From an uncultured Verrucomicrobiales bacterium (GTDB lineage: Bacteria; Verrucomicrobiota; Verrucomicrobiia; Verrucomicrobiales; DEV007), in the NCBI GenBank assembly GCA_937891465.1, contig CALAHF010000085.1, forward strand, positions 1 to 41,541: a stretch of DNA of 41,541 nucleotides, given 5' to 3'. Both the position numbers and the translations under genes were made by a program. This document shows, piece after piece, positions 20,469 to 39,716 of this stretch; position 1 is the first letter of the stretch, and each line of letters starts with the position of its first letter. The notes under the pieces are model-generated. The model did not search any database. It was not told where the DNA came from and worked only from the letters and a program-made list of their open reading frames with translations.

Positions 20469-20493
20469 TTTTGAAAATAGGTAAAATGATTTG

Positions 20494-21405
20494 TTATCGA
20501 GTCCACGCGATAAGCGCGATTCCGAGAAACACAGGGAGATAAAGCAGGGTGTATAAAAAGAGTTTTCGTGCATCGCTTCGCTCCCGAGTTTTCACGAATC
20601 TAAGAGCCAAAAAGGTCATGCCGAGGCCTAAAAGTATGCCGGGGATTGCAAACCACCACGGCGTCAGGTTCGCAAAAACCGTGATGAGAGGTAGCAAGGC
20701 AACCAGAACAGAAAAGAACAGGGCCAACTTGGAAGTCAATCCTCCCGATTCATCTTCGTTTGCCCACATGACAAATCCACCTTGTTTGTATTGCTCCCGA
20801 TACATCCAATTGATTGCGAGGAAGTGGGGCATTTGCCATAAGAACAAGAGAGAGAAGAGGAACAAGGCTCCCCACGAAAACGATTCCCCTCCTGCAGCAG
20901 CCCATCCAATCAGTGGAGGGAATGCGCCAGACATAGCCCCAACAAGGGTGTTCGTAGACGATTTTTGCTTCAACGGCGTGTAGATGAACAAGTAAGTGAA
21001 AAGCGTTGCCCCCGCGAAAAATGACGCCGTTGGATTGGCTTTGATGGACAAGTGAACCATTCCAAAAGCGCACAAAATGACACCAATTCCAAAAGCAGCC
21101 GAACGGGGAATTCGATTGGCGGGCAGCGGTCGATCTGCCGTCCGATCCATTTTCGCATCCACGTCGATTTCCATCAATTGATTGAAAACAGCTGCACCAA
21201 AAGCGGCAAGGACGGTTCCGAATGTGGTGTGTAACAGAATGCTCCACGAAAATGTACTGAGCATTTTTGCACCGACAAGATATCCAAAAACTGTTGTAAC
21301 TACCACCAGAGCACTGAGACGTGCTTTGGTCAGCGTCATCAGGTCCTGTTTCGCGGTAGCGAAGATGCTGAGTTTCGAACTGTCAGTTGTGTCGGCCATT
21401 TCCAT
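20494..21405 (-). CDS. ctaB: protoheme IX farnesyltransferase (heme O synthase)
   Basis: The protein has about 303 residues with multiple membrane helices. It adds a farnesyl group to heme B to make heme O. The prenyl-binding Asp motif is NQLMEIDVDAKMDRTADRPL, matching the UbiA-type N-x-x-D-x-x-x-D and the D-R-T-x-x-R-P-L block of CyoE/CtaB. The start ATG 21405 falls 7 bases after the stop of the heme A synthase gene, so the two are coupled and would act in sequence. Confidence 0.95.
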   Translation of the reverse strand: MEMADTTDSSKLSIFATAKQDLMTLTKARLSALVVVTTVFGYLVGAKMLSTFSWSILLHTTFGTVLAAFGAAVFNQLMEIDVDAKMDRTADRPLPANRIPRSAAFGIGVILCAFGMVHLSIKANPTASFFAGATLFTYLFIYTPLKQKSSTNTLVGAMSGAFPPLIGWAAAGGESFSWGALFLFSLLFLWQMPHFLAINWMYREQYKQGGFVMWANEDESGGLTSKLALFFSVLVALLPLITVFANLTPWWFAIPGILLGLGMTFLALRFVKTRERSDARKLFLYTLLYLPVFLGIALIAWTR

Positions 21406-21412
21406 GAGAAAA

Positions 21413-22543
21413 TCAGCGGGAATCGGCGGCAATCAAGACTTCGTTTTTCGAGCGAATGGCCCAGACCAGGATCGAGAATGCACATGCCAGGATTGCGAGA
21501 CCATTGAGCACGTGAAAATTGGTAATCCAGAAAGACTTTTCAGTGACAATGACCAGAACTCCAAGGGTTACCTGAGCCACCAGCAATCCGGCAACGATCG
21601 ATTGAAAGCGAACAAATCGCACATCCATATTTTTTTGTCGGACCAGCCAACCGAAGAACACAAATGCCAGCAAAAAAATAGCGAGCGCGGTGACTTTGTG
21701 AAAAAACATGATCGTGATAATCGGGTGATCAAATGCAGGAACAAGCTCCCCGCCAGTTTTGACAATTCCAGAGTCGGCTAACCCGAATCGATGATGGTGC
21801 CTCATCAATGCTCCCAATGCGAGTTGCGTAACGACGACGCTTACGCTGATTGTCGCAAAACTCATGAGCGCAGAACGTGACCGGTGAGCAACCACCGGAC
21901 GAATCCCCTCCCAATTCGGTGAAGCAACAATTGCAATTAAAATCAACACGCAGAAAAACGCTTGAGCAAAACACCCGTGAAAAACTGCCCAACTATCCGA
22001 AATCTCCGTTACCCGAAGGCCGCCGAAAATTGCCTGAGCGGTAACCATGAGAAATGCCAAACCAGCGATTTTTTGGATCAATGACCAGCCCCGACGGAAC
22101 CAACTTACAATAAGCCAACCGATCGGGATCAGGCTGCTGATAACTCCAATCAACAGTAACATCTGCTTCCGTTCAGCCGAGAACCGTTCGCGACCACTTG
22201 CGATGAAAATTCCAAAAATCAGTGTTAGAAGGAGAAAAATCCCCAGAACTTCAAGGCCTCGCTTTTTTGACGTTGAACCGTAGGTCCAGATCAAAAGGCC
22301 CAACGTGAGAAATCCGACCAAGTTAGCAAAGAGCCGGTGGGTATGCTCCAAAAACGGAGCTAGATATTTAAGCCACCCTTCGGGATTGATCGAGCCATGA
22401 CTCAGCGGCCAGTCAGCAAAGGCCATTCCTGCGCCTTCGGTCGTCGTCGCCGCCCCCCACCATATGAGGAACACGGTTGCAGCTAATAAAACGACTATAT
22501 ATCGTCGCAAGGCGACGGAGTATGTTTGAGACGGAAAGTTCAT
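21413..22543 (-). CDS. ctaA: heme A synthase (COX15/CtaA family)
   Basis: The protein has 376 residues starting at ATG 22543 (NFPSQTYSVALRR), with eight predicted membrane helices. It oxidises the methyl group of heme O to give heme A. The heme-binding His residues appear as FLEHTHRLFAN, VFHGCFAQ, MFFHKVTAL and NFHVLNG, in pairs in each half as expected for the duplicated four-helix fold. A GTG four codons upstream is a possible but less likely start. Confidence 0.93.
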   Translation of the reverse strand: MNFPSQTYSVALRRYIVVLLAATVFLIWWGAATTTEGAGMAFADWPLSHGSINPEGWLKYLAPFLEHTHRLFANLVGFLTLGLLIWTYGSTSKKRGLEVLGIFLLLTLIFGIFIASGRERFSAERKQMLLLIGVISSLIPIGWLIVSWFRRGWSLIQKIAGLAFLMVTAQAIFGGLRVTEISDSWAVFHGCFAQAFFCVLILIAIVASPNWEGIRPVVAHRSRSALMSFATISVSVVVTQLALGALMRHHHRFGLADSGIVKTGGELVPAFDHPIITIMFFHKVTALAIFLLAFVFFGWLVRQKNMDVRFVRFQSIVAGLLVAQVTLGVLVIVTEKSFWITNFHVLNGLAILACAFSILVWAIRSKNEVLIAADSR

Positions 22544-22620
22544 GGTTGTTTCCACGGGAGATTACGAATCAAACCCAATCGTGGAAACCCGAGAAAAGGG
22601 TGTCGGCGCACTTCCTGAAA

Positions 22621-23391
22621 TCACTCTTTCGGTAACATCGGGTTCTGAGCAGCATGCCACTCATCGTATTCTTTCTGCTCCATCACCACGACTGACGCTA
22701 CCATCTGCGCATGACTAGCTCCGCAGAGCTGGGCGCATACAATATCCCATTCACCAACTTTGCTGGGAACGAACCACATTGGAATTTCCGTCCCTGGAAT
22801 AGCGTCTTGCTGACTGAAGAATGGAACAATAGCCAAACCGTGAATCACATCTTTCGAAGTTACCTGAATAATTACCGGCCGCCCAATCGGAACCACAAGC
22901 TCATTCACTGAAACAAAATCATCGAGTGAATTAGGATCATTTTTATCCAAGCCAATTCCATTGGAACCGCCCGTAATCAGACGATTATTGGTAATGCCCA
23001 GCATCTTGTCGGCACCGGCGTAATGAAACGTCCAACGGAACTGCTCACCAACAGCTCGCAGCTTCACCACATTTTCCCCCTTTGGCATATTTTCGATATC
23101 AGCACGTTTAGCCCAAAGCGGATATGCGAACCCGAGTAGGAGCACCACTTCGACGATCACCACACCAACCTCCAAGTGAGTTGAAAAGTGCGACGTGATT
23201 CCGTGATAACGTGCACTGGGGTGCTTCTTTCTCCGGAATTTCCACAAAATGACAACCAGAAAACCTGTCCAGAAAATGGTAAGTGCTGCCACAAACCAGT
23301 GAATGATCGCAAGCACGTGATTTCCGATTTCAGCATGCTCTGATGCCAGTTCATGCATGTAGAGAATCTCATTAATCCATTCGATATCCAT
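22621..23391 (-). CDS. coxB: cytochrome c oxidase subunit II
   Basis: The protein has 256 residues. Two N-terminal helices (about 26-50 and 73-92) anchor a periplasmic cupredoxin domain. The CuA ligands are His184, Cys219, Cys223, His227 and Met230 (VIHGLAIVP and CAQLCGASHAQM). Position 221, usually Glu, is Gln here. There is no fused cytochrome c domain; separate c-type cytochromes are encoded upstream in the run. Electrons pass from cytochrome c through CuA to subunit I. A repeat fills the gap before this gene. Confidence 0.95.
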   Translation of the reverse strand: MDIEWINEILYMHELASEHAEIGNHVLAIIHWFVAALTIFWTGFLVVILWKFRRKKHPSARYHGITSHFSTHLEVGVVIVEVVLLLGFAYPLWAKRADIENMPKGENVVKLRAVGEQFRWTFHYAGADKMLGITNNRLITGGSNGIGLDKNDPNSLDDFVSVNELVVPIGRPVIIQVTSKDVIHGLAIVPFFSQQDAIPGTEIPMWFVPSKVGEWDIVCAQLCGASHAQMVASVVVMEQKEYDEWHAAQNPMLPKE

Positions 23392-23930: not shown

Positions 23931-24296
23931 CTAGGACTTCAAACTTGGGAATCCATTGGTCCGAACGGTTTCGAACGCTTCTTTAATCGGATCCCAACCA
24001 GCAAAAAGCGTAAGTGCCATAAGGCTGAGGGCGAAACAAAAGGTAAAAATAAGAAACTTATAAACCAACGTCTTCTCGTGATTCAGGTGCATGAAGACCA
24101 ACGCAACAAGAGATGCTTTGACCGTCGCAACGAGCAATCCAATGACAAAATCTTCCCAAGTCGCGCCCGGCAATCCAAAGTCAAAAATAGGGAATGCGCC
24201 TAATGACACGGTGACGCAAGTAAACACTAGCAGTGCGATACCCACTGCTTTGTATGCTTTTTTGTGTTTGGCAATCTCTTCTGGGGAACTGGCCAT
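23931..24296 (-). CDS. cytochrome c oxidase subunit IV
   Basis: The protein has 121 residues with three membrane helices. The middle block ATVKASLVALVFMHLNHEKTL is the typical motif of bacterial subunit IV (CtaF / COX4_pro). It stabilises the oxidase core and binds no cofactors. The gene follows subunit III with a gap of about 30 bases. Confidence 0.9.
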   Translation of the reverse strand: MASSPEEIAKHKKAYKAVGIALLVFTCVTVSLGAFPIFDFGLPGATWEDFVIGLLVATVKASLVALVFMHLNHEKTLVYKFLIFTFCFALSLMALTLFAGWDPIKEAFETVRTNGFPSLKS

Positions 24297-24326: not shown

Positions 24327-25793
24327 TCAAAGGAGATACATGATCGGGAACAGGAAGATCCAGACCAAGTCAACAAAGTGCCAGAACAAGCCGCCAACCT
24401 CTACCCGGTTAGCAAGGTGCTCTGGATTCTTCAAATATAGTTTTTTACCAAACATTACGAAGTGCAGCAAAACCAGCGCCCCACCGATAACGTGGAGACC
24501 GTGCAGTGCAGTCATCGTAAAATAAATCGCGTAGTAGTTTCCGTAACGCGGACCGTGATTGCCCATGAAACGGATATCACTGCGAGGAACGCTAATGGTG
24601 TGGTGCTCACCATGATCGTCATGCCCATCAGCATCTCCGTGGCCATGTTTTTCTTCAGCATGATCGCCCTTGTGTGGATCATCTTCGGACTTTTTCTCTT
24701 CAGACTTGGCGTGATTGCCGGCTGTATCTTCGAAATCTTCATGCGGGATGGTGTGAAGATTGATATAAGCGCTCTGAACTACTTTTCCCGGAATCGGCTC
24801 GCCCTTGAAGTGGCCACGAATTTTCTCCAGCGACTTTTCCTGAGCCTTCTCCCAGTTGGGTCGGACCTGATGATATTTCTCAAAAAAGCTCCACACCATT
24901 GATTCTTTCTGTCTGCCAATTGGTATCATCTGGAGATCGATCTGATGAGGAATCAATTCAACGTAATCATTGATGAGCTTGCCCTCCACCACAACATTAT
25001 CGATGTAGTTTAGCTTTTTCTCATCGTAATTGGTTACTTTCCGGTCTTTCGCCAGCAACTTGAATGGTTTAACTGCTGTCAACTCAGCCTTCGTAGAAAC
25101 AATTTTCAACTGAGCCGCCTCGCCTTTTTTCTTAGCAGCGCGGAACTCTTTCCGTGCTGCTGCCAAATCCTGAGAAACCCGGGCGCGCTTCTTATAAAAC
25201 CATTTCCTCAGGCCCTTCTCACCCTGAAGAGTAACGGTTTCTTCCCCCTCCATCACTGTGAAGTCTGGAAACGCTCCGTCCACATGTCCTACAAAAGCAG
25301 GCAGATCGCTCTGAAGGCTCAACGTAACCTTGGAAGCTTCGAACGAGATCTTGTCTGTACCATTCGCAATTTCGCCCTCTACAACGGAGTCATCAGTGAG
25401 TTTAATTCCATAGTGATGATTGAGCTTTTTGTTATACTCGAAGGCCTTCACGCACATGAAAATAGCAGCACAAGCGATCACAGCGGACATCCAATTCCGG
25501 AACACGTTCCAATTCCTTTCTTTCAAGGCAAGCCAGGCAAACACGACGAAGACGGACGACAGAATCAGAATAATCGTATTGAGGAATCCAAGCCAAATAC
25601 CCGACCCGTGAACATCCAGCCCCATTGGCCATGGAGTATCAACGCCATCATTAACGCCCACGCGGAGAAATACATACGCCGAAAAAAGGCCGCCAAAAAG
25701 CATCACCTCAGATGCAAGGAACAGCCAAATTCCAACTTTGGCGTTGTAAAGTCCCGTGTCTCGCCGGGCAGTTACTTCGTAGGGAATTTCCAT
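24327..25793 (-). CDS. coxC: cytochrome c oxidase subunit III with a large hydrophilic insertion
   Basis: The protein has 488 residues; bacterial subunit III usually has about 200-290. Residues 1-125 give the first membrane helices (KVGIWLFLASEVMLFGGL, IWLGFLNTIILILSS). The family resumes at about 410 with FMGNHGPRYGNYYAIYF and TALHGLHVIGG, and ends with a normal last helix. Between them, residues ~127-410 are hydrophilic: a beta-rich part, a coiled-coil-like basic stretch (about 195-240) and a His/Asp/Glu-rich run at ~358-398 (for example EEKHGHGDADGHDDHGEHH). The frame is continuous, so this is a true insertion and not a gene fusion by frameshift. The His-rich part could bind metal. Confidence 0.93.
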   Translation of the reverse strand: MEIPYEVTARRDTGLYNAKVGIWLFLASEVMLFGGLFSAYVFLRVGVNDGVDTPWPMGLDVHGSGIWLGFLNTIILILSSVFVVFAWLALKERNWNVFRNWMSAVIACAAIFMCVKAFEYNKKLNHHYGIKLTDDSVVEGEIANGTDKISFEASKVTLSLQSDLPAFVGHVDGAFPDFTVMEGEETVTLQGEKGLRKWFYKKRARVSQDLAAARKEFRAAKKKGEAAQLKIVSTKAELTAVKPFKLLAKDRKVTNYDEKKLNYIDNVVVEGKLINDYVELIPHQIDLQMIPIGRQKESMVWSFFEKYHQVRPNWEKAQEKSLEKIRGHFKGEPIPGKVVQSAYINLHTIPHEDFEDTAGNHAKSEEKKSEDDPHKGDHAEEKHGHGDADGHDDHGEHHTISVPRSDIRFMGNHGPRYGNYYAIYFTMTALHGLHVIGGALVLLHFVMFGKKLYLKNPEHLANRVEVGGLFWHFVDLVWIFLFPIMYLL

Positions 25794-25845: not shown

Positions 25846-27792
25846 TCACTCGCCTTCGACCGTTTCTTCGGGAGTTAAATTTGGGGTTTCCTCAACCTCA
25901 TCGCCAGCGTCCGGCTCAAACTGAGGAGTAAAATCAGTGTCAGCACCTGGAACGCTATATTCATAGGGGTCACGATACGCAACAGGCTCTTCGATAAAGT
26001 TTCCATGCGGGGGCGGAGTCGGAGTCGACCACTCGAGAGTCGTCGCATCCCACGGGTTATCGTTTTTGATCTTCTTACCAGAGAACGCACTCCAGAAAAT
26101 ATTGATAATGAACGGCGCTTGAAAGACAGCAAGCAACCAGGCAGAGGTCGAAGTAACGATGTTGAGATCGATCAAATAAATCGAGTGATCGGCAGCACCC
26201 TCAGCAGTAACGCGTCCCATGGTGGCAAGCACCTCGTCAGTCCGACCCAGAAGAGATTGAAAGGCACGCGCAATCACGCCGTCACCCATAAAAATCTGTG
26301 CGCTAATTTCCTCATAAGCCTTGCCACCGTCAAACGCGCGACGGTGAAACCCTGCCATTCCCTGAAGCATCATCGGGAGGAAAATCCCATTCATGAAAAG
26401 CAATGAAGGCCAGAAGTGGAGATGACCCAGCATGGTGTTCATCTGGCGTCCAGTGTGTTTTGGATACCAGTGATAGATTCCTGCAAAAAGTCCAAAAATT
26501 GTACCTGGCGCAACCACATAGTGGAAGTGACCAATCACATAATAGGTGTCATGAAGGTGGAGGTCCGGAAGACTGAAAGCGAGCGGTAAACCGGTCAATC
26601 CACCAAAGCCAAACATTGGAATAAAGGCCGTTGCAAACAACATCGGAATGGTAAATCGAATCGAACCTCCCCACATCGAAATAAGAATCGATGTAATCAA
26701 GATCACCGAAGGCACGGAAATCAAAACCGTGGTCGTCTGGAAAAAGGTCGAAATCGCGGGTCCCATTCCCGTCATATACATGTGGTGAGCCCACACAATG
26801 AAGCTCAGGAATCCAAGCACCATAACCGCGTAAACCATTGTCTTATAGCCCCACAAAGGTTTTCGGGTGTTGCAGGGAATAATTTCCCCCACAATTGCAA
26901 TCGCAGGCAGAACAAGAACATAAACCTCCGGATGGCCAAGAAACCAAAAGAGGTGCTGGTAAAGAAGTGGACTACCGCCACCCGCAGCGATGAACTCAGC
27001 CCCGTTTACATTCAGGCCGGTGGGAACGAAGAAGCTGGTCCCTGCCATGCGGTCCATCAACTGCATGATCGCCGCTACTTCAAGAGGCGGGAATGCCAAC
27101 AAAAGTAGAAAACCAGTGACCAGCATCGCCCAAACAAAGAAGGGCATCCGCATCCAAGTCATACCACGACACCGCAAATTAATGATCGTGGTGATAAAGT
27201 TTACCGCTCCCAAGAGGGATGAAGAGATCAAAAACACCATCCCGACCAGCCATAAGGTTTGCCCGGTCCAAAACAAATCACCGAAGTGAAGATCCGTCGT
27301 CGTGGCTAAAGGAGAGTAGTTGGTCCAACCGACTTTCGCTGCTCCTGAAGGGAGAAAGAACGATGCCAACATTACGATACCACCTATGAGAAACGACCAA
27401 AAGCTGGCCATATTCAGTCGAGGAAAAGCCATATCCGGCGCTCCGATTTGCAAAGGGGTGACGTAATTACCAAACGCACCAAACGCCAACGGGACGACCC
27501 CAAGGAAAACCATAATCGTTCCGTGCATCGCTCCGAACATATTATAAAGCTCACCGGTCACTTTTCCTTCATCATCCAGCCATGCCTGAAACCACGGGAA
27601 ATCAGAAAGCATGGGGACTGCGCGATCCGGAAAGGCAATACTCCATCGCATCACCATCATGAGGAAGAATCCGATCGCCAAAAAAGTCAGAGCGACAAAT
27701 CCGTACTGCAAACCGATCACCTTGTGATCGGTTGAGAAAATGTACTTTTTCCAGAAAGGAGGGTCGTGATGTTCGTGGGCGTCTGCGCTCAT
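25846..27792 (-). CDS. coxA: cytochrome c oxidase subunit I (A1-type heme-copper oxidase)
   Basis: The protein has 648 residues and 12 core helices. All cofactor ligands are present: low-spin heme His90 (AMHGT) and His424, high-spin heme His422 (GHFHYVV), CuB His287 with cross-linked Tyr291 (WFLGHPEVYVLVLPA), and His336-His337 (WAHHMYM). Glu289 in HPEVY marks a D-channel A1-type enzyme. The loop around 475-545 and an acidic Pro-rich tail of about 60 residues are longer than in minimal forms. It reduces oxygen to water and pumps protons, and contrasts with the ligand-poor CcoN-like protein of the same run. Confidence 0.97.
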   Translation of the reverse strand: MSADAHEHHDPPFWKKYIFSTDHKVIGLQYGFVALTFLAIGFFLMMVMRWSIAFPDRAVPMLSDFPWFQAWLDDEGKVTGELYNMFGAMHGTIMVFLGVVPLAFGAFGNYVTPLQIGAPDMAFPRLNMASFWSFLIGGIVMLASFFLPSGAAKVGWTNYSPLATTTDLHFGDLFWTGQTLWLVGMVFLISSSLLGAVNFITTIINLRCRGMTWMRMPFFVWAMLVTGFLLLLAFPPLEVAAIMQLMDRMAGTSFFVPTGLNVNGAEFIAAGGGSPLLYQHLFWFLGHPEVYVLVLPAIAIVGEIIPCNTRKPLWGYKTMVYAVMVLGFLSFIVWAHHMYMTGMGPAISTFFQTTTVLISVPSVILITSILISMWGGSIRFTIPMLFATAFIPMFGFGGLTGLPLAFSLPDLHLHDTYYVIGHFHYVVAPGTIFGLFAGIYHWYPKHTGRQMNTMLGHLHFWPSLLFMNGIFLPMMLQGMAGFHRRAFDGGKAYEEISAQIFMGDGVIARAFQSLLGRTDEVLATMGRVTAEGAADHSIYLIDLNIVTSTSAWLLAVFQAPFIINIFWSAFSGKKIKNDNPWDATTLEWSTPTPPPHGNFIEEPVAYRDPYEYSVPGADTDFTPQFEPDAGDEVEETPNLTPEETVEGE

Positions 27793-27844: not shown

Positions 27845-28579
27845 CTATTGAACAGGCTCGCCTGTCAGCAAATCAACCTTTGCTCCTTCCAACATTGCAT
27901 CCTCCGGAATGGCGAGTAATCCAGCTTCGTCCCAAATTCCTTTTCCTCCAAATTCTTCACGTGCGGCCTTCATCATTTCAGCAGTAACGACTCCGTCATC
28001 CCCTTCAGGAAGAGCTCCGTAAGTCCTGCGGATATAAGTTGCCACTTGAGCCAACTTTTCGTCATTAAGCGCGCTCCATGCTGGCATTAATTGATTGTAA
28101 GACTGTCCAGCAACGGTAAACGGTCCATTAATTCCGTTAATCAGAATTGCACCAACACGTTTCGTGCCACCGTCAACCCACTCGGACCCAGCCAAAGGAG
28201 GGTATTGACCGGGTGCTCCCATTCCTGAGTCCTGGTGACACAATTTACAGTTTTGATAAACCTTCTTACCACCCTTCATCCATTTATCGATCCAAGGAGA
28301 ATTATCTTCTGCTGCAGCATCGCCGCCTTCGCCTGGACGCGGCTCAGGCACATACCCATCATGAGCATAAATGGAGTCTTTAAATCCATTGCTGTTTCCC
28401 AGAACAATCCCACCGCAAATCAGAATCATTGCGCAAAGAACCATTGCCAGCATCCCCATTTGTTCCTTCCCCGCAGGCATAAGAACCCGCTCGCGTTTCA
28501 CCGCATCGTGCATGTCTACAACACTGGTTTTGCCAGAGTTGTAGTCCAGATTTTGATCGCTGTTTGGGTCGCTACTCAT
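27845..28579 (-). CDS. membrane-anchored monoheme cytochrome c
   Basis: The protein has 244 residues. A cytoplasmic N-terminus of about 40 residues and one helix (MLAMVLCAMILICGGIVLG) precede a periplasmic class I cytochrome c domain. The heme site is CKLCH (Cys111, Cys114, His115) and the likely Met ligand is in NQLMPAW. A ~60-residue C-terminal extension follows. Placed just before subunit I, it may be the electron donor to CuA in place of the fused cytochrome found in caa3 oxidases. Confidence 0.88.
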   Translation of the reverse strand: MSSDPNSDQNLDYNSGKTSVVDMHDAVKRERVLMPAGKEQMGMLAMVLCAMILICGGIVLGNSNGFKDSIYAHDGYVPEPRPGEGGDAAAEDNSPWIDKWMKGGKKVYQNCKLCHQDSGMGAPGQYPPLAGSEWVDGGTKRVGAILINGINGPFTVAGQSYNQLMPAWSALNDEKLAQVATYIRRTYGALPEGDDGVVTAEMMKAAREEFGGKGIWDEAGLLAIPEDAMLEGAKVDLLTGEPVQ

Positions 28580-28598: not shown

Positions 28599-29198
28599 TC
28601 ACTTCAATTCCGCAGGTAATGGTTGGTCCTTTTTTCTGGAAAGCAGATAATCTACCAATGCCTCTGCATCGGACGTTGGCTCCCATTCATCACCATTCTT
28701 CACGTAAAGATTTCGGTAAGCAGGCATCATGTTTACTGAAGATACGCTTTTGGGATTGCTGAGGATACGATGAAGTGCCTCTCGATCCATCCGGCTTCCA
28801 ACATTTGATAAATCCTGTCCAATCCGCTGATAACCCAGCATTGCAACCGATTCGCCATGGTAATCTTGTGGCCGCGTTTCACGCATTTGCCCTTGACGAC
28901 CGCCCCAGCCTTCATGCCACATATCTGGCCCTGCATAGGTTGGCCGAACCATTTGAGTGTGACAGTAGACACACCCCTCACGCACATAAATTTCAGCACC
29001 GAAATCACTAGCACCGACAGTTGCTGCAACCGAAGAGGGATACTGAGCAAAATTTCCAGCAACTTCTTCTCCTTCAGCATATTCAACAGGCTGCGCAAGT
29101 GCCTCCCGATTATAGGGCACAACGATCATCAAGACCCAAGGCACGCCAAAAGCGAGTCCGAGTCCTGAAAGCAACTTCCATAAAGAGTTCTGATTCAT
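28599..29198 (-). CDS. CcoO-like membrane-anchored cytochrome c
   Basis: The protein has 199 residues. One N-terminal helix (LLSGLGLAFGVPWVLMIVV) is followed by a cytochrome domain typical of CcoO/FixO: EIYVREGCVYCHTQMVRP (Cys76, Cys79, His80), RIGQDLSNVGSRMD and the Met ligand region MMPAYRNL. In cbb3 oxidases CcoO passes electrons to the CcoN subunit. Here its partner, encoded directly upstream, lacks most heme and copper ligands, so this protein more likely relays electrons toward the A1 oxidase. Confidence 0.9.
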   Translation of the reverse strand: MNQNSLWKLLSGLGLAFGVPWVLMIVVPYNREALAQPVEYAEGEEVAGNFAQYPSSVAATVGASDFGAEIYVREGCVYCHTQMVRPTYAGPDMWHEGWGGRQGQMRETRPQDYHGESVAMLGYQRIGQDLSNVGSRMDREALHRILSNPKSVSSVNMMPAYRNLYVKNGDEWEPTSDAEALVDYLLSRKKDQPLPAELK

Positions 29199-29242: not shown

Positions 29243-30724
29243 CTAAACCACTTCCTCGGAAGTAAGACCCGCAGCTGCTTCCGAAGTTGCAACCGATCCC
29301 GGCTCAACATGAATTAGCGTGGGCCCTTCCGTTTTCCGTCCGCGACCGATAAACATCAGTCCCATTTGGTAAACGAACCATAAATTCGAAATTCCAATCA
29401 AGAGCCAAGCAAGTATCCGCCCAATCACATAACCCTGGCTATTTTCCACAGACAATCCGAATCGGGTCGCGTAGTCGGCCATATTTCCACCCTGAGCGAT
29501 TCCGCCTACTAGCATGACCAATACCACCGTGAGGATTCCGTATGCACTCAACCAAAAATGCCAGCGAATCATCCCGCCGGAAACCCATTCACATCCAGTA
29601 ATTCGAGGAACGATAAAATACATTGCACCAAAAATGGTCATTGAGAAGAACCCGTAAACCGCAAGCGTATCAAGTCCGACCAGAAAGTGACTGAACTGGA
29701 GATATTTCCCAACCGGAAAATAAGCGTTTAAGCCGGCCAACACTCCATACATCGCAAGAAGGAACATGCCAAACATCGTGAAGCGCAAACTCGGGCTGAA
29801 TTCCCACAAGCGGGAACGCCCACGAAGTGTCATCAAAAGGTTTGTCGCGGTTGCGATCACAGCGATCAAGATGAAAACTGAGGCAGCTCCGCTGATTGCA
29901 GGCATCCATGCTGGAAATGGACCGCCCATAAAACGTTGAAACCCTGTCCAACCAGCAAGAATAGCCAATGCCCAAAACGCCATCTTTGCGAGAGGATAGC
30001 TGTAAATTGGACGCCCTGCGATTTTAGGAACGATATAATATGCGACCGCAAGTGATACAGGGGCAAACCAGAAATAGATCAAATTCGATATAAACCAAGC
30101 GTTGGTTCCTGCAGCCATTACTGGCGCGGCTCCGTTACCGATAAAGACGTTAGCGGTGATAAAGATCCAGGGGAACCAAACCGCAGCACCGATAATGAAG
30201 AGCTCTGACACATAAACCCCGCCTGCCCGACGGACTCGATACATCGGAATCACCCAAATAGTGATCAGTAAATACGAGGCCCCCAAAAGCGGCCACAACC
30301 AAGCTGGGAAATCCAACCATGGCAATGAACGACCAGCTCCAAAAATGATTCCAAATGTTCCCAGACCAACCGCAAAATTCCAGACATGACCGGCTACAAT
30401 CACGCAAGTGGACTGCAAACGCCCCAGCCCTACACGAGTAAGACGTACCATGATCCAAAGGATAACTCCCATGCCAGCCTGCATCGCCCAACCATACACA
30501 AGTGCATTCATATGCGCCGGGAAGAGACGGCCATAGCCAAAGATCGGCATGTCCTGAAACATCGTTGGAACAGCAAGTTTTAACGAGCTCAAAAAGCCAA
30601 GTGCTGTCGCCACGAACAGCCATACCGCTGCACTAGTGAAAAAGAGCATCACAGGAAAGCGCACTGATTTATCAATCTCAGCGCGTTCCAGAATGTCTTC
30701 AGACGTGGCGTTTAAATCACTCAT
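29243..30724 (-). CDS. CcoN-like heme-copper oxidase subunit lacking most cofactor ligands
   Basis: The protein has 493 residues and 12-13 membrane helices and aligns without gaps to cbb3 subunit I in the key helices. The low-spin heme His of helix II is kept (His71 in FPAHMNALVYGW). The CuB His of helix VI is Ser213 (WFISNLIYF for WWGHNAVGF). The CuB His pair of helix VII is Gln263-Arg264 (TGFQRFM for AGPHHLH). The H-x-H of helix X that binds both hemes is Leu351-x-Thr353 (VGLDTLAVYGF). Thus five of six ligands are gone, while VPKIAGRPIYSY and GAMYFIVPR stay conserved. It cannot be a normal oxidase. It probably serves as a structural or quinone/cytochrome-docking subunit with the CcoO-like cytochrome. 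Confidence 0.9.
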   Translation of the reverse strand: MSDLNATSEDILERAEIDKSVRFPVMLFFTSAAVWLFVATALGFLSSLKLAVPTMFQDMPIFGYGRLFPAHMNALVYGWAMQAGMGVILWIMVRLTRVGLGRLQSTCVIVAGHVWNFAVGLGTFGIIFGAGRSLPWLDFPAWLWPLLGASYLLITIWVIPMYRVRRAGGVYVSELFIIGAAVWFPWIFITANVFIGNGAAPVMAAGTNAWFISNLIYFWFAPVSLAVAYYIVPKIAGRPIYSYPLAKMAFWALAILAGWTGFQRFMGGPFPAWMPAISGAASVFILIAVIATATNLLMTLRGRSRLWEFSPSLRFTMFGMFLLAMYGVLAGLNAYFPVGKYLQFSHFLVGLDTLAVYGFFSMTIFGAMYFIVPRITGCEWVSGGMIRWHFWLSAYGILTVVLVMLVGGIAQGGNMADYATRFGLSVENSQGYVIGRILAWLLIGISNLWFVYQMGLMFIGRGRKTEGPTLIHVEPGSVATSEAAAGLTSEEVV

Positions 30725-30738
30725 TTTGAATTCGAAAA

Positions 30739-31230
30739 TTACTTACTTTGCTGCGCTCCCGCTGCTTTACCGCCTTTTGCCTTACCTTCGTTGCTCTTCT
30801 TAGGCTTTGATTCGGGAGCAGGGGCAGTTTGAGCTGGAACCAGAGGATCTTCGCTATTTTTTGCGGCCGCGGCCTTTTCCGCCGCGGCTTTTGCAGCATT
30901 CCCAGCAATGTTTTTAAGATCCGTTTCCGAGCCCGGAACGATCATTGAACTTGCTTTGGCCGAACTCGCAGAAAACGACGCCATCGATGCCTCGACCTTT
31001 TTCTGGTCAAAAAGGGAGTCCTGGGCCGATACAACCTCTTTTAAATTACCGTCACGTTTCTCGATTTGCGCGGGCGTGAACTGCCCGCTCTCAGTAGCTT
31101 CTGCTCCCGTCTTAAAATCAGCAATCCACAAAACGAGGCCCGCCAGTAAGCCGAAGCTCACAAACGTAAGCGCTCCCGCGACGGTTGCCCGAAGTCGGTT
31201 TTCGCTTGAATCTGCAGGATGTTCACTCAT
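30739..31230 (-). CDS. single-pass membrane protein of unknown function in the respiratory run
   Basis: The protein has 163 residues. A short N-terminus and one helix (ALTFVSFGLLAGLVLWI) precede a periplasmic region with an Asn/Gln/Ser-rich helix and a long Ala/Lys/Pro-rich tail. It lacks heme, copper or Cys motifs. The gene lies between actF and the CcoN-like gene, only 14 bases from the latter, so it is likely a linker or accessory subunit of that module. I do not recognise the family. Confidence 0.65.
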   Translation of the reverse strand: MSEHPADSSENRLRATVAGALTFVSFGLLAGLVLWIADFKTGAEATESGQFTPAQIEKRDGNLKEVVSAQDSLFDQKKVEASMASFSASSAKASSMIVPGSETDLKNIAGNAAKAAAEKAAAAKNSEDPLVPAQTAPAPESKPKKSNEGKAKGGKAAGAQQSK

Positions 31231-31308: not shown

Positions 31309-32847
31309 TCAGTTAACAACGTTTAGACTTTCATCAAGACGAGGGTCACGACAAGGGAAAAGGCTGGCTGTACCGAGGCGCCAGAGGAAGAAAAATCCGA
31401 AGATTCCGCCAACAGCAAGAAAAGCAATCACATCATACCAGATGGCACCCGGGATCGTCATCATGCCGCCATCAGTAAGTGACGGCCCACGCTCTGGGAT
31501 GATAATCCAATAGATATCAAGGACGTGCATACACAATATCCACGCAGAAGCGGTGCAAATATAAGTCAGGTTCTTTTTAGCCTGCTGAATCAAAAGCATC
31601 AGGAATGGAATGAAGAAGTGGCCCACTACGAGAGCGAGAATGGTATACATGTTCCAAAATTCCGCGTTCCGCTGGAGGTAGAAACGAGTCTCTTCGGTAA
31701 TATTTGCATACCAGATCAGGAAGAACTGAGAAAATGCGATGTAACCCCAGAAGACCGTAAAAGCGAAGAGCAGACGTCCCATAAGGAGATAATGCTCAGG
31801 CGTCACAACCTTTTTAAGATATCCAACCTTCATCAAAACCGTGATAACCAAGATCAGAAGCGCCATGGAGTTCAAAGCCGAACCTGCAAACAGGTAAACT
31901 CCCCACATGGTTGAAAACCACGTGTAATCGAGGGCCATCAACCAATCAAAAACCAAAAACGTCCAGGCTGTAGCGAAAAACGGAAGGAATCCGCAAGCCC
32001 ATTTGCGCTGAAGTAAAAACCACTTCGGATCTCCATCCTTATCATTCTTCACTGACCAAAAACGAAGGGCATAAATAATTCCGACGAGTGCGATAAAATA
32101 CAAAACGAATCGGAACGTCCACGCGCCTTCATTGAGATAACCGCGCTTTTTCCACAGCATATAATTACCATCGTGGTGATCAAGATAGACTTCCTTTGCA
32201 ATCTCTTCCTTCAGCGCTCCTTCAGAAAGATCATGCTCAGTAACTTTTGCCAAGTCGGCCTCCTGTTTTGCAAGCTGATCTGATAAAGCCATCTTTGCTC
32301 CGGGCCTCGCCTTCGCTTGGTCAGCTAAGTTTTGAGCTTTAAATGCATCAAATTCAGACTGAGCCGTTTTCTGACCAGCTTCGTATTCGCCCTTAAGCTT
32401 TGCCACAGCACCTTCTTCATACCTCGCATCGACCTTCTCATCCAAAGCTGCCTTTAAAGGAATCCACTCCCAGAGTGCTTCTTTAAAAGTTGGAACGGTC
32501 ACCAACGGGATCCCTAAAATCAGAACAAACAAAACCATCGTCCCGATATTCTCCATCATTCGGCGAACGACGATTCCCCAACCTGAGTTGGATGCATGGT
32601 GAAGCAACGTCCAGAAAATCCCACCGATCGAAAGCGTCAGGAAAAACACGATAGCGAACAACCATGAGTAAGCCATTGCCCCGGATCGCGAGTAACCACC
32701 CTCCTGCTCAGCGCCACCCGTTGCAGCAAGAACAATAAAGATGATTGCAAAAAGCACACCACCTCCAAGGAGAAGAAACTTCAAAAGGCCTCCGCCCTTG
32801 AAATGTTCCCCGTCGCGGAAATCGTCTGCGTCTTTCAGTCCTGCCAT
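31309..32847 (-). CDS. actF: alternative complex III quinone-binding subunit ActF, with insertion
   Basis: The protein has 512 residues; ActF is usually about 400. It has around ten membrane helices and belongs to the same family as ActC, with typical blocks such as GYLNEGAWTFRFVLYF, FLVFDWLMALDYTWFSTMWG and WYANITEETRFY. It is part of the membrane domain that oxidises menaquinol or ubiquinol. Residues ~133-220 form a charged, Ala/Lys/Glu-rich, coiled-coil-like insertion between the third helix and the next conserved block. It is the last of the six act genes. Confidence 0.93.
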   Translation of the reverse strand: MAGLKDADDFRDGEHFKGGGLLKFLLLGGGVLFAIIFIVLAATGGAEQEGGYSRSGAMAYSWLFAIVFFLTLSIGGIFWTLLHHASNSGWGIVVRRMMENIGTMVLFVLILGIPLVTVPTFKEALWEWIPLKAALDEKVDARYEEGAVAKLKGEYEAGQKTAQSEFDAFKAQNLADQAKARPGAKMALSDQLAKQEADLAKVTEHDLSEGALKEEIAKEVYLDHHDGNYMLWKKRGYLNEGAWTFRFVLYFIALVGIIYALRFWSVKNDKDGDPKWFLLQRKWACGFLPFFATAWTFLVFDWLMALDYTWFSTMWGVYLFAGSALNSMALLILVITVLMKVGYLKKVVTPEHYLLMGRLLFAFTVFWGYIAFSQFFLIWYANITEETRFYLQRNAEFWNMYTILALVVGHFFIPFLMLLIQQAKKNLTYICTASAWILCMHVLDIYWIIIPERGPSLTDGGMMTIPGAIWYDVIAFLAVGGIFGFFFLWRLGTASLFPCRDPRLDESLNVVN

Positions 32848-32887: not shown

Positions 32888-33511
32888 TTATTCGCCGGTC
32901 GAAGCCTGCAAAGCCTTCACGTAAGCAACAATCGCCCAACGATCATGAACATTGATGGCGCCGTTGTAGGGCCCCATCAACCCTTTGCCGTGGGTAATCG
33001 TCCAAAAAAGTTGTCCTTCAGGAAGCGCCTTAACACGCGGATCCAATAAATTTGCTGTGGGAGGAATAGCCCAATATTTAGAAACGACACCCTGCCCGTT
33101 TCCGCTTTTGCCATGGCAAACGGTGCAGTTGATTTCAAACCGCTGTTGTCCACGCTCAAGAAACTCTTCATCCACCTTCACCTGCTCGGGAAATCCCTCA
33201 CCGAAGAAATCCTCAAACTTTCCGGTGTTGTAATAGTCTGAACCAACGCTGAAATCCAGATTGGTGGTTCCGATCCCCGCACTTGCATCAATCGGCTGAA
33301 CAAATCCAAGAGGAACAGTACCTGCGATCGGCTTCCGCGACCCCTGATTATCAGCAAAAAAGTGACTCGGCTTCTGATATTTGACCTTGTACTGGCGGTC
33401 CATGTCTGGGAATAACTCGAACGGTGGACTCGTGAATTTCGCACCGCGCGGCCCCAACGCAGAAACGATGGTCACGGTCAAAATTGCAAGAACTAGGAAA
33501 AACCAGCGCAT
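32888..33511 (-). CDS. actE: alternative complex III monoheme cytochrome c ActE
   Basis: The protein has 207 residues with an N-terminal anchor or lipid-type signal helix. Its heme site is CTVCH (Cys129, Cys132, His133), followed by GKSGNGQGVVSKY and a Met ligand near GLMGPY. ActE takes electrons from ActA and hands them to the terminal oxidase side. The gene lies between actF and actD with short gaps, the standard order. Confidence 0.92.
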   Translation of the reverse strand: MRWFFLVLAILTVTIVSALGPRGAKFTSPPFELFPDMDRQYKVKYQKPSHFFADNQGSRKPIAGTVPLGFVQPIDASAGIGTTNLDFSVGSDYYNTGKFEDFFGEGFPEQVKVDEEFLERGQQRFEINCTVCHGKSGNGQGVVSKYWAIPPTANLLDPRVKALPEGQLFWTITHGKGLMGPYNGAINVHDRWAIVAYVKALQASTGE

Positions 33512-33520
33512 TAGATCAAA

Positions 33521-34069
33521 TTAGGCTTCAAGGAGTTCGATTTCACCCGCACCAATTTCTTCAAGAAATTCGCGGGTCCGCTCTTTGCGGAATTTAGGAT
33601 CACGAGACTCAATTACGAGAATGAATCCGTCGTCAGAAAATTTGTTAAATAACGCTGAATTGAACAGCGGGTGATTCCAGCGTGGAAGCATGATAAACGC
33701 GCACAATCCGATCAGCGTTGCGAACGCAGTGAACAAAATCGTCAACTCAAACATCACAGGAAAGAATGCAGGAATAGTACTGAGATTCGTCGGCTTATTC
33801 TGCACGACGGTCGGGTAAAGCATCACCTGCGTGAAAAACTCAAGCGAAAGAGCCGTCAGGAACCCCGTAACACCACCAATCAACGAGCACGTCGAAAGCC
33901 ATGACTTCCCGAGCCCCATCGCCTTATCAATTCCGTGAACCGGATAAGGAGTGTGGACATCCCAGCGCTTAAACCCGGCATCGCGCACATGCTCGGCGGC
34001 ATGATAGAGTTCCGGCGCTGAACCAAATTCAGCGATGTAAGCAAACGGTGTTGTTCGATTTTCACTCAT
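33521..34069 (-). CDS. actD: alternative complex III membrane subunit ActD (DUF3341)
   Basis: The protein has 182 residues with two central helices (CSLIGGVTGFLTALSLEFF and FELTILFTAFATLIGLCAFIML). The start FAYIAEFGSAPELYHAAEHVRDAGF and the end DDGFILVIESRDPKF are conserved ends of DUF3341. It has no cofactor and helps bind the membrane and periplasmic parts. It starts 8 bases after the actC stop. Confidence 0.93.
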   Translation of the reverse strand: MSENRTTPFAYIAEFGSAPELYHAAEHVRDAGFKRWDVHTPYPVHGIDKAMGLGKSWLSTCSLIGGVTGFLTALSLEFFTQVMLYPTVVQNKPTNLSTIPAFFPVMFELTILFTAFATLIGLCAFIMLPRWNHPLFNSALFNKFSDDGFILVIESRDPKFRKERTREFLEEIGAGEIELLEA

Positions 34070-34077
34070 TCGTTGTG

Positions 34078-35529
<1,452 letters not shown>

Positions 35530-35603: not shown

Positions 35604-38600
35604 TTAGTGCATTTTTGAAGTCGAAACACCCACTTTATCCGCCCCTGGCATTGCCGGATTTGGATTCTTAATGCGGGCCAAATAACTCGTCCGTGGACGG
35701 GTTCCGATATATTTCAACAAATCGTAATTTCTTGGATTATTCTTACCTCCAACAATTGAATCCTTCTCATTCATCAAGTTTCCGAAGTCAATCGCCCCTG
35801 CAGGACATGCATCCTGACAAGCGACTGTGAGTGAATTCGCCTTAACCTGAACATCAGCGGAATCGCGAGCAGCAACTTTAGCTCCAATCTTCGCCTTGCT
35901 GATTCGCTGAACGCAATAGGTGCATTTCTCGATCACGCCGCGCATCCGAACCGTTACATTCGGGTTCTTCTGAAGTTGCTCAGAAGTGGTCGCGTGACCC
36001 TCGGCTGGAGCAAGCGGCCCGTGATACAACTTATCAAGCGGACGCTTATTGTAATCAAAGTAATTGAAGCGACGCGCCTTATAGGGGCAGTTATTCGCGC
36101 AATAACGCGTTCCGATACAGCGATTGTAAGTCATCGCATTCAAACCATCGGAACTGTGAACCGTTGCATTCACTGGGCAAACCGTCTCACACGGAGCCGC
36201 CTCGCACTGCTGACATGCAACTGGCTGGGTAATCATCTCAACCGCATCGTCATCAATCGACCGACGACCGGGAGTTTCCAGCTTATCACCAAAAGCGTAA
36301 TCCGTAACACCGCCGCGATCACTAATGAGCTCGTGGTCTTTTTCGCTCGTAAAATAGCGGTCCATCCGGATCCAGTGCATTTCACGACCCGCCAGAACCT
36401 GGTGCTTTCCAACAATTGGAATATTATTCTCAGCCTGACACGCCACCGAACAAGCATTGCAACCGATGCACGAATGCAAATCGATCGTCATCGCCCATTG
36501 GTGATTCGGATCTACTCGGAAAGCATGACCTTCAAGAGCCCAATCCGAATTCTCCTCATTCCGCGTCGGATTAAGGTCATCCGAACTGGTGAAATCGTAC
36601 CCTTTATAAAGCGAAATCTCTTCAGGAATATGAGCATCCATTCCCTGGGTTTGAGCAAAATCATCATGCTCATCGAACATGTCTTTAGTTCCTTCGCGAA
36701 CCAAAGCACGCCCCTCCATGCTGTAGTGTTCAGCCGTGAGAGCCAAATCATGCTTATAACCAAGCTTTTTAACGGTCGCACCAGGAATCACAAATGGATT
36801 CGCAGTCGTCCGCAATGGATTCACATCAAAACCAACACCCGTTCCGACGTTTCCAACAGAAACCTCTTCATCAACACCGTAGTAACCCACAGACAACTGA
36901 AGCGTGTAATCAGCCTGACCCGGACTCCGCAAAACAGGGGCTTTAATTGAACGATCACCAACAGCAATCTCAACCATGTCCCCATCTTCAAGACCAAGAC
37001 GCGAAGCCGTTCCAAAACCGATGAGCGCAGCATTATCCCACGTGAGCTTTGTGATTGGATCAGGAGATTCCTGCATCCAACCGTTGTTCACAAATCGACC
37101 ATCGTAAGTCGATGACCCGGGAACCAAATTCACCTCGAGAGCCTCCGGGTGAGGAAGATCGGAGAATTTAAGACCAGACGGAGCCGAAGGACTACCAGAA
37201 GCAGCTGGATACTTGGTATCTTTCGCGAAACCGATCCGAACCACATCATTCCAGTCCGCACCGCCAGCAACTCGCTTAAACGTCTCTTGAACCGCAACCA
37301 AGGCATCTGCAACCAGATTGACTTCAGCTTTGGCCTCCACTGCAACTGGAGCAGCAGCCTTTTCACCTTCTTTAACAGGCTCACCAGCCGAAACTGGAGT
37401 CGCAGCCACAGCCGCAACAGGAGACACAAGAAGTGACTGCAAAAAGTTAATTTCAGAAACCCCACCCCACATCGGGCGAATCATAGGCTGCTGAACAGAA
37501 TAGACACCGAGCTCAGAACGAAAATCGCCCCAGGCCTCCAAGTAATGCGTCGCCGGCACATGCCACGTCGACTGCCGCGCCGTCAAATTAACGCGAACCC
37601 CATGGTGAACTACCCGAGGAACCTTCGCAAAAGCCTCAGCCACATTCAAATCAGCAGGAGCATCAAACACAGGATCCGACTCAGTTGAAACAAAAAGCGT
37701 CTTAATTTTTCCAGAATTAATATCCGCAACCAGCTCAGCTAACCCTGAATTTGTCTTCTGACCGGTATTAACAACCGAAACAGGCGCGCCGAGCGCCGCA
37801 TTCATAACAGCGACGAGATGATGAACCTCTTTAGGCTGAGCAGAACCAGCAACCACCAGCGACTTACCTTTGGCAGCCAGTAAATCTTTAGCACACTCAG
37901 AAATCCATTTGGTGTTGTAAACCGCCTTATTGATTCCACCCGCACTGAAACCTGAAATCTCAGCAGCAAGCAACGCGGCAACCTGCAGCACCTGACTCGA
38001 AGCAACACGATAGCGGTGATCAGCCATTCCACCAGTCAGCGTAAAACCTGACTCAACGGAGTAGAGGCGATTCATTTCACCACCATCATCAACCTTCCGA
38101 CCACGAGCAAATTCAGCTACAGGATCCTCACCCTGCTTATCAAGCCCCATGAAATCACAGTCGAGTGACAAAACCCGCTCGGCCTTTTCAAAATTCGGCA
38201 CCGCACGACCACCTTCACCGTATATCTCGTTTTCAGCCGCCTCACGACTGCCACCAGCAAGAACATCGTAGCTATAAACCTTAGATCCCGCGTATTTCGC
38301 AACCGCATCCGCAAGCAGGCGAGCCCGCGTCGGAGAAGAGTTCTCAGAGATCAAAAACGCAACCCCATCACCGGACGCCGCCTCACGAAAGCCATTGAGA
38401 AATCCGCCTTCAAAATCAGCAGCAACCGTTGGATTACCAGCCTTCAAATAGCCACGCGAGCGATCCGGATCATACATGTCCAGAATCGACGCCTGCGTAA
38501 AAGCATCCGACCCACCCGACATATTCGGGTGCAATTTATTTCCATCCACCTTCGTCGGGCGACCATCATAAGTCGTCACCACCAACGGGTCACAACCGCG

Positions 38601-38918
38601 ACCACCCAAACGAGGCTTTGCCGTTGCGTAAAAAAGCGCTTTTCCGGGAACCAACCACTCAACGTGATCATTAAACGGAACCAAATTTCGAACCGGACGA
38701 CTGCACGCCACACCAAATCCAGCCAGAGCTGTCGCAGCACCCATCAACTTAATGAAATTACGACGCGAATCATCATCCGACTCCAATTCAGCAGCACCCT
38801 GAGGAAATTCCCGCTCCAACCAGGATTTAAAATCCTTGGAATCCTCCAATTCACCAAGGCTCCGCCAATATTGGCGACCAGTCTCAGGAGCTTCAGGATG
38901 TATCCACTTGCGCTTCAT
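35604..38918 (-). CDS. actB: alternative complex III iron-sulfur subunit ActB (fused B1-B2)
   Basis: The protein has 1104 residues. A twin-arginine motif SRRNFIKLMG (Arg52-Arg53) is followed by a lipobox-like GVAC with Cys72, so it is Tat-exported and probably lipid-anchored. Residues ~80-740 resemble molybdopterin oxidoreductases but without a visible cofactor site, as is usual for ActB. Residues ~790-1080 hold four Fe-S cluster motifs: CIGCNACSVACQAENN, CQQCEAAPCETVCP, CIGTRYCANNCPYKARRF and the pair CTYCVQR plus CQDACPAGA. It carries electrons between quinol subunits and the ActA hemes. The mid-region has an Ala/Lys/Glu-rich linker near 520-545. Confidence 0.96.
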   Translation of the reverse strand: MKRKWIHPEAPETGRQYWRSLGELEDSKDFKSWLEREFPQGAAELESDDDSRRNFIKLMGAATALAGFGVACSRPVRNLVPFNDHVEWLVPGKALFYATAKPRLGGRGCDPLVVTTYDGRPTKVDGNKLHPNMSGGSDAFTQASILDMYDPDRSRGYLKAGNPTVAADFEGGFLNGFREAASGDGVAFLISENSSPTRARLLADAVAKYAGSKVYSYDVLAGGSREAAENEIYGEGGRAVPNFEKAERVLSLDCDFMGLDKQGEDPVAEFARGRKVDDGGEMNRLYSVESGFTLTGGMADHRYRVASSQVLQVAALLAAEISGFSAGGINKAVYNTKWISECAKDLLAAKGKSLVVAGSAQPKEVHHLVAVMNAALGAPVSVVNTGQKTNSGLAELVADINSGKIKTLFVSTESDPVFDAPADLNVAEAFAKVPRVVHHGVRVNLTARQSTWHVPATHYLEAWGDFRSELGVYSVQQPMIRPMWGGVSEINFLQSLLVSPVAAVAATPVSAGEPVKEGEKAAAPVAVEAKAEVNLVADALVAVQETFKRVAGGADWNDVVRIGFAKDTKYPAASGSPSAPSGLKFSDLPHPEALEVNLVPGSSTYDGRFVNNGWMQESPDPITKLTWDNAALIGFGTASRLGLEDGDMVEIAVGDRSIKAPVLRSPGQADYTLQLSVGYYGVDEEVSVGNVGTGVGFDVNPLRTTANPFVIPGATVKKLGYKHDLALTAEHYSMEGRALVREGTKDMFDEHDDFAQTQGMDAHIPEEISLYKGYDFTSSDDLNPTRNEENSDWALEGHAFRVDPNHQWAMTIDLHSCIGCNACSVACQAENNIPIVGKHQVLAGREMHWIRMDRYFTSEKDHELISDRGGVTDYAFGDKLETPGRRSIDDDAVEMITQPVACQQCEAAPCETVCPVNATVHSSDGLNAMTYNRCIGTRYCANNCPYKARRFNYFDYNKRPLDKLYHGPLAPAEGHATTSEQLQKNPNVTVRMRGVIEKCTYCVQRISKAKIGAKVAARDSADVQVKANSLTVACQDACPAGAIDFGNLMNEKDSIVGGKNNPRNYDLLKYIGTRPRTSYLARIKNPNPAMPGADKVGVSTSKMH

Positions 38919-38945: not shown

Positions 38946-39716
38946 CTATCGGTGACAGGACGCACAATCTTGCGGCGGATGCACATTCCACAATCCCTGC
39001 AGATGCTTACCCACGATTTTTTGCGTCAAAGAATCACCTTCACCAATTCCATCTGCCTCCATCAACTCCGCCTCAGACTTGCCGGACTTACTAGCGATCC
39101 TAGCATAAAATTCACCCACGTTCTCATCTTCAGCCTCCCAATCAAGATTGGTAATCTGATCCAGCGGACGAAGGTGTTCATCAACATTCCTGTGACAATC
39201 GAGGCAGAACCCCATGCTCAGGTTTTTCGCGTGATAAACCACGGACATTTCATTCACCTTGCCATGACACTCCACACAACTGACACCGCGATTTACGTGA
39301 GCAGCATGGTTAAAGTAAGCATAATCAGGAGTTTCGTGGATTTGAACCCAACGAATTGGATCGCCCGTGTAATTCTCGTTATCAGTATCCATCGCCTGAC
39401 GCAAAGGCTCGAGAGCAGGAGAATCAGCCTTCACCTTACCGGGGCCATGGCAATTCCAGCAAGTTTGAGCTGCAGGAATATTTGAGTGCGGAGAATCTTC
39501 CACGAAAGTATGGCAGTAACGACAATCCATTTTCAACTGCCCCGCATGAAGCGAATGATCAAAGGGGATTGGCTGCTGCGGCGCGTATCCGACTCGCGTA
39601 AACTTTGGCGTCGCAACATACCACGTCAAACCTGCGATAACGGTGGCTAATGCACCGAGGCAGATGATCAATTTTATAGGCAGGAGATTAATCCAGCGTG
39701 GAAAGATGTTTCCCAT
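38946..39716 (-). CDS. actA: alternative complex III pentaheme cytochrome c ActA
   Basis: The protein has 256 residues with one N-terminal helix (LPIKLIICLGALATVIAGL) and a periplasmic multiheme domain. Five C-x-x-C-H sites are seen: CRYCH (65-69), CWNCH (86-90), CVECH (147-151), CLDCH (171-175) and CASCH (251-255), the number known for ActA. It is the first gene of the run. A perfect CRP-type palindrome is centred about 40 bases before its start. Confidence 0.95.
   Translation of the reverse strand: MGNIFPRWINLLPIKLIICLGALATVIAGLTWYVATPKFTRVGYAPQQPIPFDHSLHAGQLKMDCRYCHTFVEDSPHSNIPAAQTCWNCHGPGKVKADSPALEPLRQAMDTDNENYTGDPIRWVQIHETPDYAYFNHAAHVNRGVSCVECHGKVNEMSVVYHAKNLSMGFCLDCHRNVDEHLRPLDQITNLDWEAEDENVGEFYARIASKSGKSEAELMEADGIGEGDSLTQKIVGKHLQGLWNVHPPQDCASCHR

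Follow-up and report, generated by a model that had tools for sequence, protein, structure and literature searches.

The catalytic subunit CcoN of cbb3-type oxidases is marked by six histidines for heme b, heme b3 and CuB together with a tyrosine in helix VII, and CcoP of the same enzymes carries two CxxCH motifs. For alternative complex III (ACIII), a supercomplex with an aa3 oxidase was reportedly described from Flavobacterium johnsoniae by Sun and co-workers in 2018, and to our knowledge no CcoN/CcoO module is present in it. In Methylacidiphilum kamchatkense, ACIII genes are co-located with those of a cbb3 oxidase, which was tied to oxygen affinity, according to PMC6688271, and a cbb3 oxidase is listed for these methanotrophs in PMC8498564, PMC10205796, PMC8170126 and PMC11102522.

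The operon and its CcoN-like gene

The window analysed here, a stretch of 41,541 nucleotides from an uncultured Verrucomicrobiales bacterium, holds the ActABCDEF genes in order, which constitute an ACIII operon. The genes from ActA to CoxD follow one another on the minus strand, CoxB comes after a gap beyond CoxD, and CtaA and SCO1 lie further along. In minus-strand order, the features are as follows.

38946..39716, minus strand: ActA, multi-heme cytochrome c, named by order
35604..38918, minus strand: ActB, iron-sulfur subunit, named by order and sequence
34078..35529, minus strand: ActC, NrfD family (PF03916)
33521..34069, minus strand: ActD (PF11821, 6.6e-56)
32888..33511, minus strand: ActE, mono-heme cytochrome c, named by order
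31309..32847, minus strand: ActF, named by its place in the operon, with no Pfam match at E 0.01
30739..31230, minus strand: small protein P0003 with one hydrophobic stretch, without a Pfam or NCBIfam family at E 0.01
29243..30724, minus strand: CcoN-like subunit P0001, 493 aa, with H71, S213, Q263, R264, L351 and T353 in the ligand columns and A257 in place of the tyrosine
28599..29198, minus strand: CcoO-like subunit P0002, a mono-heme cytochrome c that retains its CxxCH and distal Met
27845..28579, minus strand: mono-heme cytochrome c P0005 with a hydrophobic N-terminal stretch and a weak CcoP match
25846..27792, minus strand: CoxA, A-type oxidase subunit I, all ligand motifs visible
24327..25793, minus strand: CoxC (subunit III) with a long insert
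23931..24296, minus strand: CoxD (subunit IV)
22621..23391, minus strand: CoxB (subunit II) with a CuA-type motif, without a fused cytochrome c
21413..22555, minus strand: CtaA, heme A synthase family (PF02628)
19671..20573, minus strand: SCO1/SenC copper assembly protein family (PF02630)

ActD and ActC were named by Pfam and the other Act genes by order and homology between loci, the name ActF being assigned to 31309..32847 (-) from the usual Act gene order. The first-pass annotation had placed the CcoN-like gene inside an operon of Act complex III and an A1 oxidase, and the gene indeed lies between the ACIII and A-type oxidase parts; its CcoO-like mono-heme partner is the company expected of a cbb3 subunit I gene. 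A counterpart of P0003 between ActF and CcoN was also seen in L003, L006-L009, L093 and L099, while an extra cytochrome c gene takes this position in 14 other loci of the window's order. The long insert of CoxC (488 aa) is hydrophilic with a histidine-rich stretch.

The CcoN-like frame (30724-29243, minus strand) is complete, with 493 residues and no internal stop, and the protein matched PF00115 with an E value of 1.1e-44. Its ligand columns were read against the solved CcoN chains 9g6b_A and 3mk7_A and relatives with complete ligand sets. The reading made from the letters alone, which had given S213, Q263-R264 and L351-x-T353 with only His71 left, agreed with both the structures and the relatives, so that one of the six histidines remains. 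The helix VII tyrosine column, to which that reading had not extended, is occupied by alanine (A257). The protein scored 99.1 bits against the NCBIfam ccoN equivalog cut-off of 583 bits, a failure that does not decide the matter since L051, a relative with a complete active site, also fell under the cut-off (253.7 bits).

Intact and broken relatives

Screening of 387 Verrucomicrobiota genomes gave matches in 122. Within ACIII operons, 99 copies were read (the window, L003-L016, L048-L067, L073-L076 and L088-L147), which are unfused and mostly about 500 residues long; some of these rows are close kin, and named and unnamed records may overlap. When copies with fewer than all six histidines were called broken, 26 loci of the class were intact and 73 broken, the latter retaining no histidine in 17 cases, one in 49, two in six and three in one, and displaying 42 different six-letter ligand patterns. 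The ligand loss is fixed in a clade, as had been asked of the relatives, and it was found far beyond that clade as well. Seven further copies on short stretches comprised six broken and one intact. The Act genes were visible in 97 of the 99 loci, with all six in 86, L004 and L005 being cut by contig ends, and the gene order was the same in intact and broken operons. Fused CcoN-CcoO proteins with frames of 660-843 residues were found in L080-L087, and L080, the one tested, passed the ccoN cut-off. A further two, smaller groups (L068-L071 with L079; L072, L077 and L078) lie elsewhere than in ACIII operons and have the full six histidines, apart from L079, in which the frame is split and the first column is missing. 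In L103 (9173-10672) and L104 (1270-2778), CcoN keeps only the low-spin heme b pair, H71 and H353, and the b3 and CuB ligands are lost; these copies are possible intermediates.

In the alignment of the 99 rows, the stretches around helices II and VI were gap-free in every row, and those of helices VII and X had gaps in one and four other broken rows, respectively, the window and all 26 intact rows being free of them. No histidine was present within four columns of any lost ligand position, the nearest being H346, five before 351. Misalignment was thus ruled out as the cause of the missing ligands in the window, and with it the objection, foreseen in the first-pass annotation, that other histidines might occupy the ligand positions. 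The helix VII tyrosine was present in 26 of 26 intact rows and in none of the 73 broken ones. Judged by these columns, the window protein is almost certainly not an oxygen reductase.

The genome of the window (95.6% complete) contained two PF00115 matches, the CcoN-like protein and the neighbouring CoxA, and no bd oxidase match was found in it. A second complete CcoN, which had been considered as the possible true partner, was not seen in the PF00115 search, with the reservation that a copy may have been missed in an assembly of this completeness. The comparison was extended to 92 genomes, of which 65 have a broken and 26 an intact copy, as tallied from the ligand reads, while G228 was not read. 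At least one further PF00115 match, with ligands mostly unchecked, occurred in all 65 genomes with a broken copy. Neither a further PF00115 match nor a bd oxidase was found in G001 and G146, two small genomes (1.3-1.7 Mb) with an intact copy. The ACIII-linked six-histidine CcoN (L051 and L114, respectively) was the sole terminal oxidase found in them, a position that the intact form can thus hold. In the 92-genome set, the broken form was never the only oxidase found. CoxA followed downstream, on the operon's own strand, in 34 of the 73 broken loci versus one of the 26 intact loci, counts in which the rows are not independent, and it was not found beside the operon in the other 39 broken loci, some of which are short.

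The broken copies include those of methanotrophs. The five genomes of group f5 that were searched had two to four PmoA-family genes each. In G152, taken as M. kamchatkense Kam1, the ACIII-linked CcoN (L073) has the ligand pattern SESHFV, in which five of the six ligands are absent, and the ACIII-linked 'cbb3 oxidase' reported for M. kamchatkense therefore appears, on its ligand columns, to be the broken copy. The five PF00115 matches of G152 were the broken copy, NorB, a ba3 type and two with the A-type HPEVY motif; another cbb3 subunit I was not among them, and a bd oxidase match was present. To judge from such ligand columns, the published 'cbb3' annotations rest on broken copies of this kind, and the high oxygen affinity of Methylacidiphilum is tied in PMC6688271 to a cbb3 oxidase with a catalytic subunit lacking five of six ligands. 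In Methylacidiphilum caldifontis IT6, a nitrous oxide reductase cluster lies inside the ACIII cluster beside aa3 and 'cbb3' genes, according to PMC11102522.

Fold, constraint and history of the ligand loss

An AlphaFold2 model of the CcoN-like protein, built with 61 rows, had a pLDDT of 92.8 and a pTM of 0.92, and predicted that the 12-helix subunit I fold, nearest to that of CcoN, is kept. The five best structural matches were cbb3 subunit I chains (Z 46.4-47.8), headed by 3mk7_D (Z 47.8, rmsd 2.0 over 443 residues), and nitric oxide reductase ranked after the cbb3 chains (Z 42.0). The 26 intact rows share 115 invariant columns, 108 of them non-metal and seven metal/Tyr columns. The window protein keeps 73 of the former but one of the latter (Fisher one-sided p 0.008), which is not the pattern of plain decay. 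On average, the broken rows retained 62% of the 108 other columns versus 13% of the seven metal/Tyr columns, and the metal/Tyr fraction was below the other-column fraction in 73 of 73 rows.

Pairwise dN/dS of broken CcoN was 0.028-0.287 in 10 of 11 pairs, rough values since several dS exceeded 1, and the pair of the window and L003 was saturated. The claim that the gene is under selection and not decayed was borne out by these values. The dN/dS of CcoN was higher than that of ActC in eight of eight comparable broken pairs and higher than that of CoxA in six of seven. A young pseudogene or a sequencing artefact is hardly conceivable as an explanation of the missing ligands, as open frames occur in many species, the dN/dS is low and the ligand sets are broken in 73 of 99 loci; the former was rejected on the intact frame and the low, if rough, dN/dS. 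The predicted retention of the 12-helix membrane fold might instead be taken to mean that the protein has acquired a new function in binding quinone or conducting protons. Such a function is very improbable on the present sequences, since no newly conserved column (at least 80% in the broken set and below 40% in the intact rows) was found and the columns released in the broken rows include 246 and 323, which we take to be K-pathway positions.

The remaining histidine deserves separate consideration. All 30 rows from the window's order carry H71, while column 353, where its partner ligand would sit, holds I, T, L or V in them, and a bare scaffold does not explain this invariance. The CcoN-like protein might keep a five-coordinate heme b on His71 in the low-spin pocket and act as a redox or gas-sensing subunit, and the exact retention of H71 and H353 in L103 and L104 indicates that the low-spin site can persist after the active site is gone. 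Nevertheless, 68 other columns were equally invariant in the 30 rows, and H71 may thus be a packing residue; moreover, H71 was absent in 40 of the 73 broken rows. We regard such a heme-bearing redox or sensing subunit as quite unlikely.

The same-operon relatives with a full active site point to an ACIII-linked cbb3-type oxidase as the ancestor and to a loss that seems recurrent. All 14 outgroup CcoN rows in the tree had six histidines, and the intact state was therefore taken as ancestral. Under the assumption of irreversible loss, the tree of CcoO and cytochrome c required seven losses (six changes if reversible), the tree of ActB, ActC and ActF 14 losses, or 11 with forks below 95 collapsed (nine changes if reversible), and the CcoN tree three losses, or two with forks below 95 collapsed; a second CcoN tree without outgroups gave two state changes. 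Intact and broken rows are interleaved in the trees of the neighbour genes, which do not carry the trait themselves. The grouping of all broken rows as one clade was rejected by the Act data (lnL 3116 lower) and was not rejected at 5% by the CcoN data (lnL 65 lower, p 0.054). Two other groupings were rejected by the CcoN data, a single f6 clade (lnL 487 lower) and f10 with f13 (lnL 78 lower, p 0.03). The broken L053 was located inside the intact group f4 in the CcoN tree, and a constrained test on the CcoN data accepted L060 within f4. When 25 broken rows were placed singly among 22 intact rows, with very long end branches and mostly low support, L053 and L060 joined f4, and of the nine f6 rows six joined f6 and L134, L141 and L145 did not; L061 (f10) went to f4 and L075 (f5) to f6. 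We read the conflict between the CcoN tree and the neighbour trees as long-branch attraction, exchange of ccoN between operons being another possible cause. It is firm that the ligand loss happened more than once, and it likely happened several times.

Proposed role and comparison with known systems

The heme-bearing partners of the broken CcoN were retained. Every one of the 99 loci read, 73 broken and 26 intact, has the CxxCH of CcoO. That of the downstream cytochrome c was seen in all 73 broken loci and in 24 of the 26 intact ones, the remaining two intact loci yielding none. The distal Met of CcoO was present in all 26 intact loci and in 47 of the 73 broken ones, including the window. In the other 26 broken loci it was replaced by Cys (17), Lys (3), Arg (3), His (2) or Ala (1), so that the CcoO heme may not relay electrons in all lineages. 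The 17 loci with Cys all belong to the window's order (L010-L016, L089-L091, L095-L098 and L100-L102). The model of P0002 was less confident (pLDDT 83.3, pTM 0.69); its five best PDB matches were all CcoO chains with TM-scores of 0.51-0.59, and the protein scored 52 bits against the NCBIfam ccoO cut-off of 200.65 bits.

We consider the window protein to be probably an ex-catalytic subunit of an ACIII-linked cbb3-type oxidase that is now a non-catalytic membrane scaffold. The ancestor, encoded as ActABCDEF-CcoN-CcoO-cytochrome c, would have paired a quinol-oxidising ACIII with a C-type oxidase of its own, as supported by the intact relatives, which in two genomes are the sole terminal oxidase found. 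In the lineage of the window and several others, CcoN would then have lost its b3 and CuB ligands together with the tyrosine of helix VII, and mostly the low-spin heme ligands too, while its fold persisted along with the CxxCH motifs of CcoO and cytochrome c. The dead CcoN may hold CcoO and cytochrome c against ACIII, and electrons would pass from menaquinol to the ACIII hemes, on to the hemes of CcoO and cytochrome c, and then to CuA of the co-encoded A-type oxidase. We infer this wiring role from co-conservation and gene order. The structural or electron-relay role that the first-pass annotation had suggested is favoured to this extent, with the relay assigned to the hemes of CcoO and cytochrome c and not to the CcoN-like protein itself. 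Two main doubts attach to the scaffold: H71, invariant in the window's order, could be a heme ligand, and the CcoO Met is replaced in other lineages.

The latter doubt bears on another explanation, in which the CcoN-like subunit is a mere assembly or stability factor for ACIII or the A-type oxidase and CcoO and cytochrome c lie off the main electron path. The 26 broken loci, among 73, with a replaced distal Met agree with it, as does the mono-heme ActE of F. johnsoniae, which was dispensable for electron transfer from ACIII to aa3 according to PMC8552683, such that extra c-hemes need not lie on the path. The retention of CxxCH in both cytochromes in all 73 broken loci argues against it, and we judge it unlikely.

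For the scaffold reading extended to the whole group, we see roughly even chances, perhaps slightly less, that the ACIII-cbb3 supercomplex in Verrucomicrobiae was repeatedly and independently turned into a metal-poor 'wiring harness' feeding another oxidase, with seven or more conversions counted on the neighbour-gene trees. The oxidase core would have been gutted, the c-heme subunits kept, and the electrons passed to another oxidase. If true, a large share of the ACIII-linked genes that carry the label 'cbb3 oxidase' in this class, those of methanotrophs among them, do not encode an oxidase. The intact and broken operons within one class offer natural before/after pairs for what a III-IV supercomplex needs besides oxidase catalysis. 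The data suggest that this former enzyme, no longer active, has taken on a scaffolding role in the respiratory chain.

A heme-copper oxidase core that lacks its metal centre and is retained under selection was not found described in the open-licence literature searched. With CcoN of Pseudomonas stutzeri (3mk7) and Rhodobacter capsulatus (6xkw), the window protein shares the fold over 443 residues, the neighbouring motifs and a CcoO partner, but its identity to them is 22-23% and it lacks five of the six metal histidines and the helix VII Tyr. Unlike in these cbb3 oxidases, the downstream cytochrome c of the window has one CxxCH, and the genes sit with ACIII. Closer are the six-histidine CcoN of ActABCDEF-CcoNO-cytochrome c operons, as in L051 of G001, which share the operon and a similar length and differ from the window protein in their complete active site; the identity is about 33-41%, and they fall into one clade with it in the CcoN tree. 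The Methylacidiphilum 'cbb3-type oxidase' beside ACIII is the same gene in the same operon (L073-L076), described as an oxidase in PMC6688271 and PMC8498564, yet its SESHFV pattern lacks five of six ligands. The ACIII-aa3 supercomplex of F. johnsoniae, as presented in PMC8552683, resembles the window in that ACIII is paired with an A-type oxidase.
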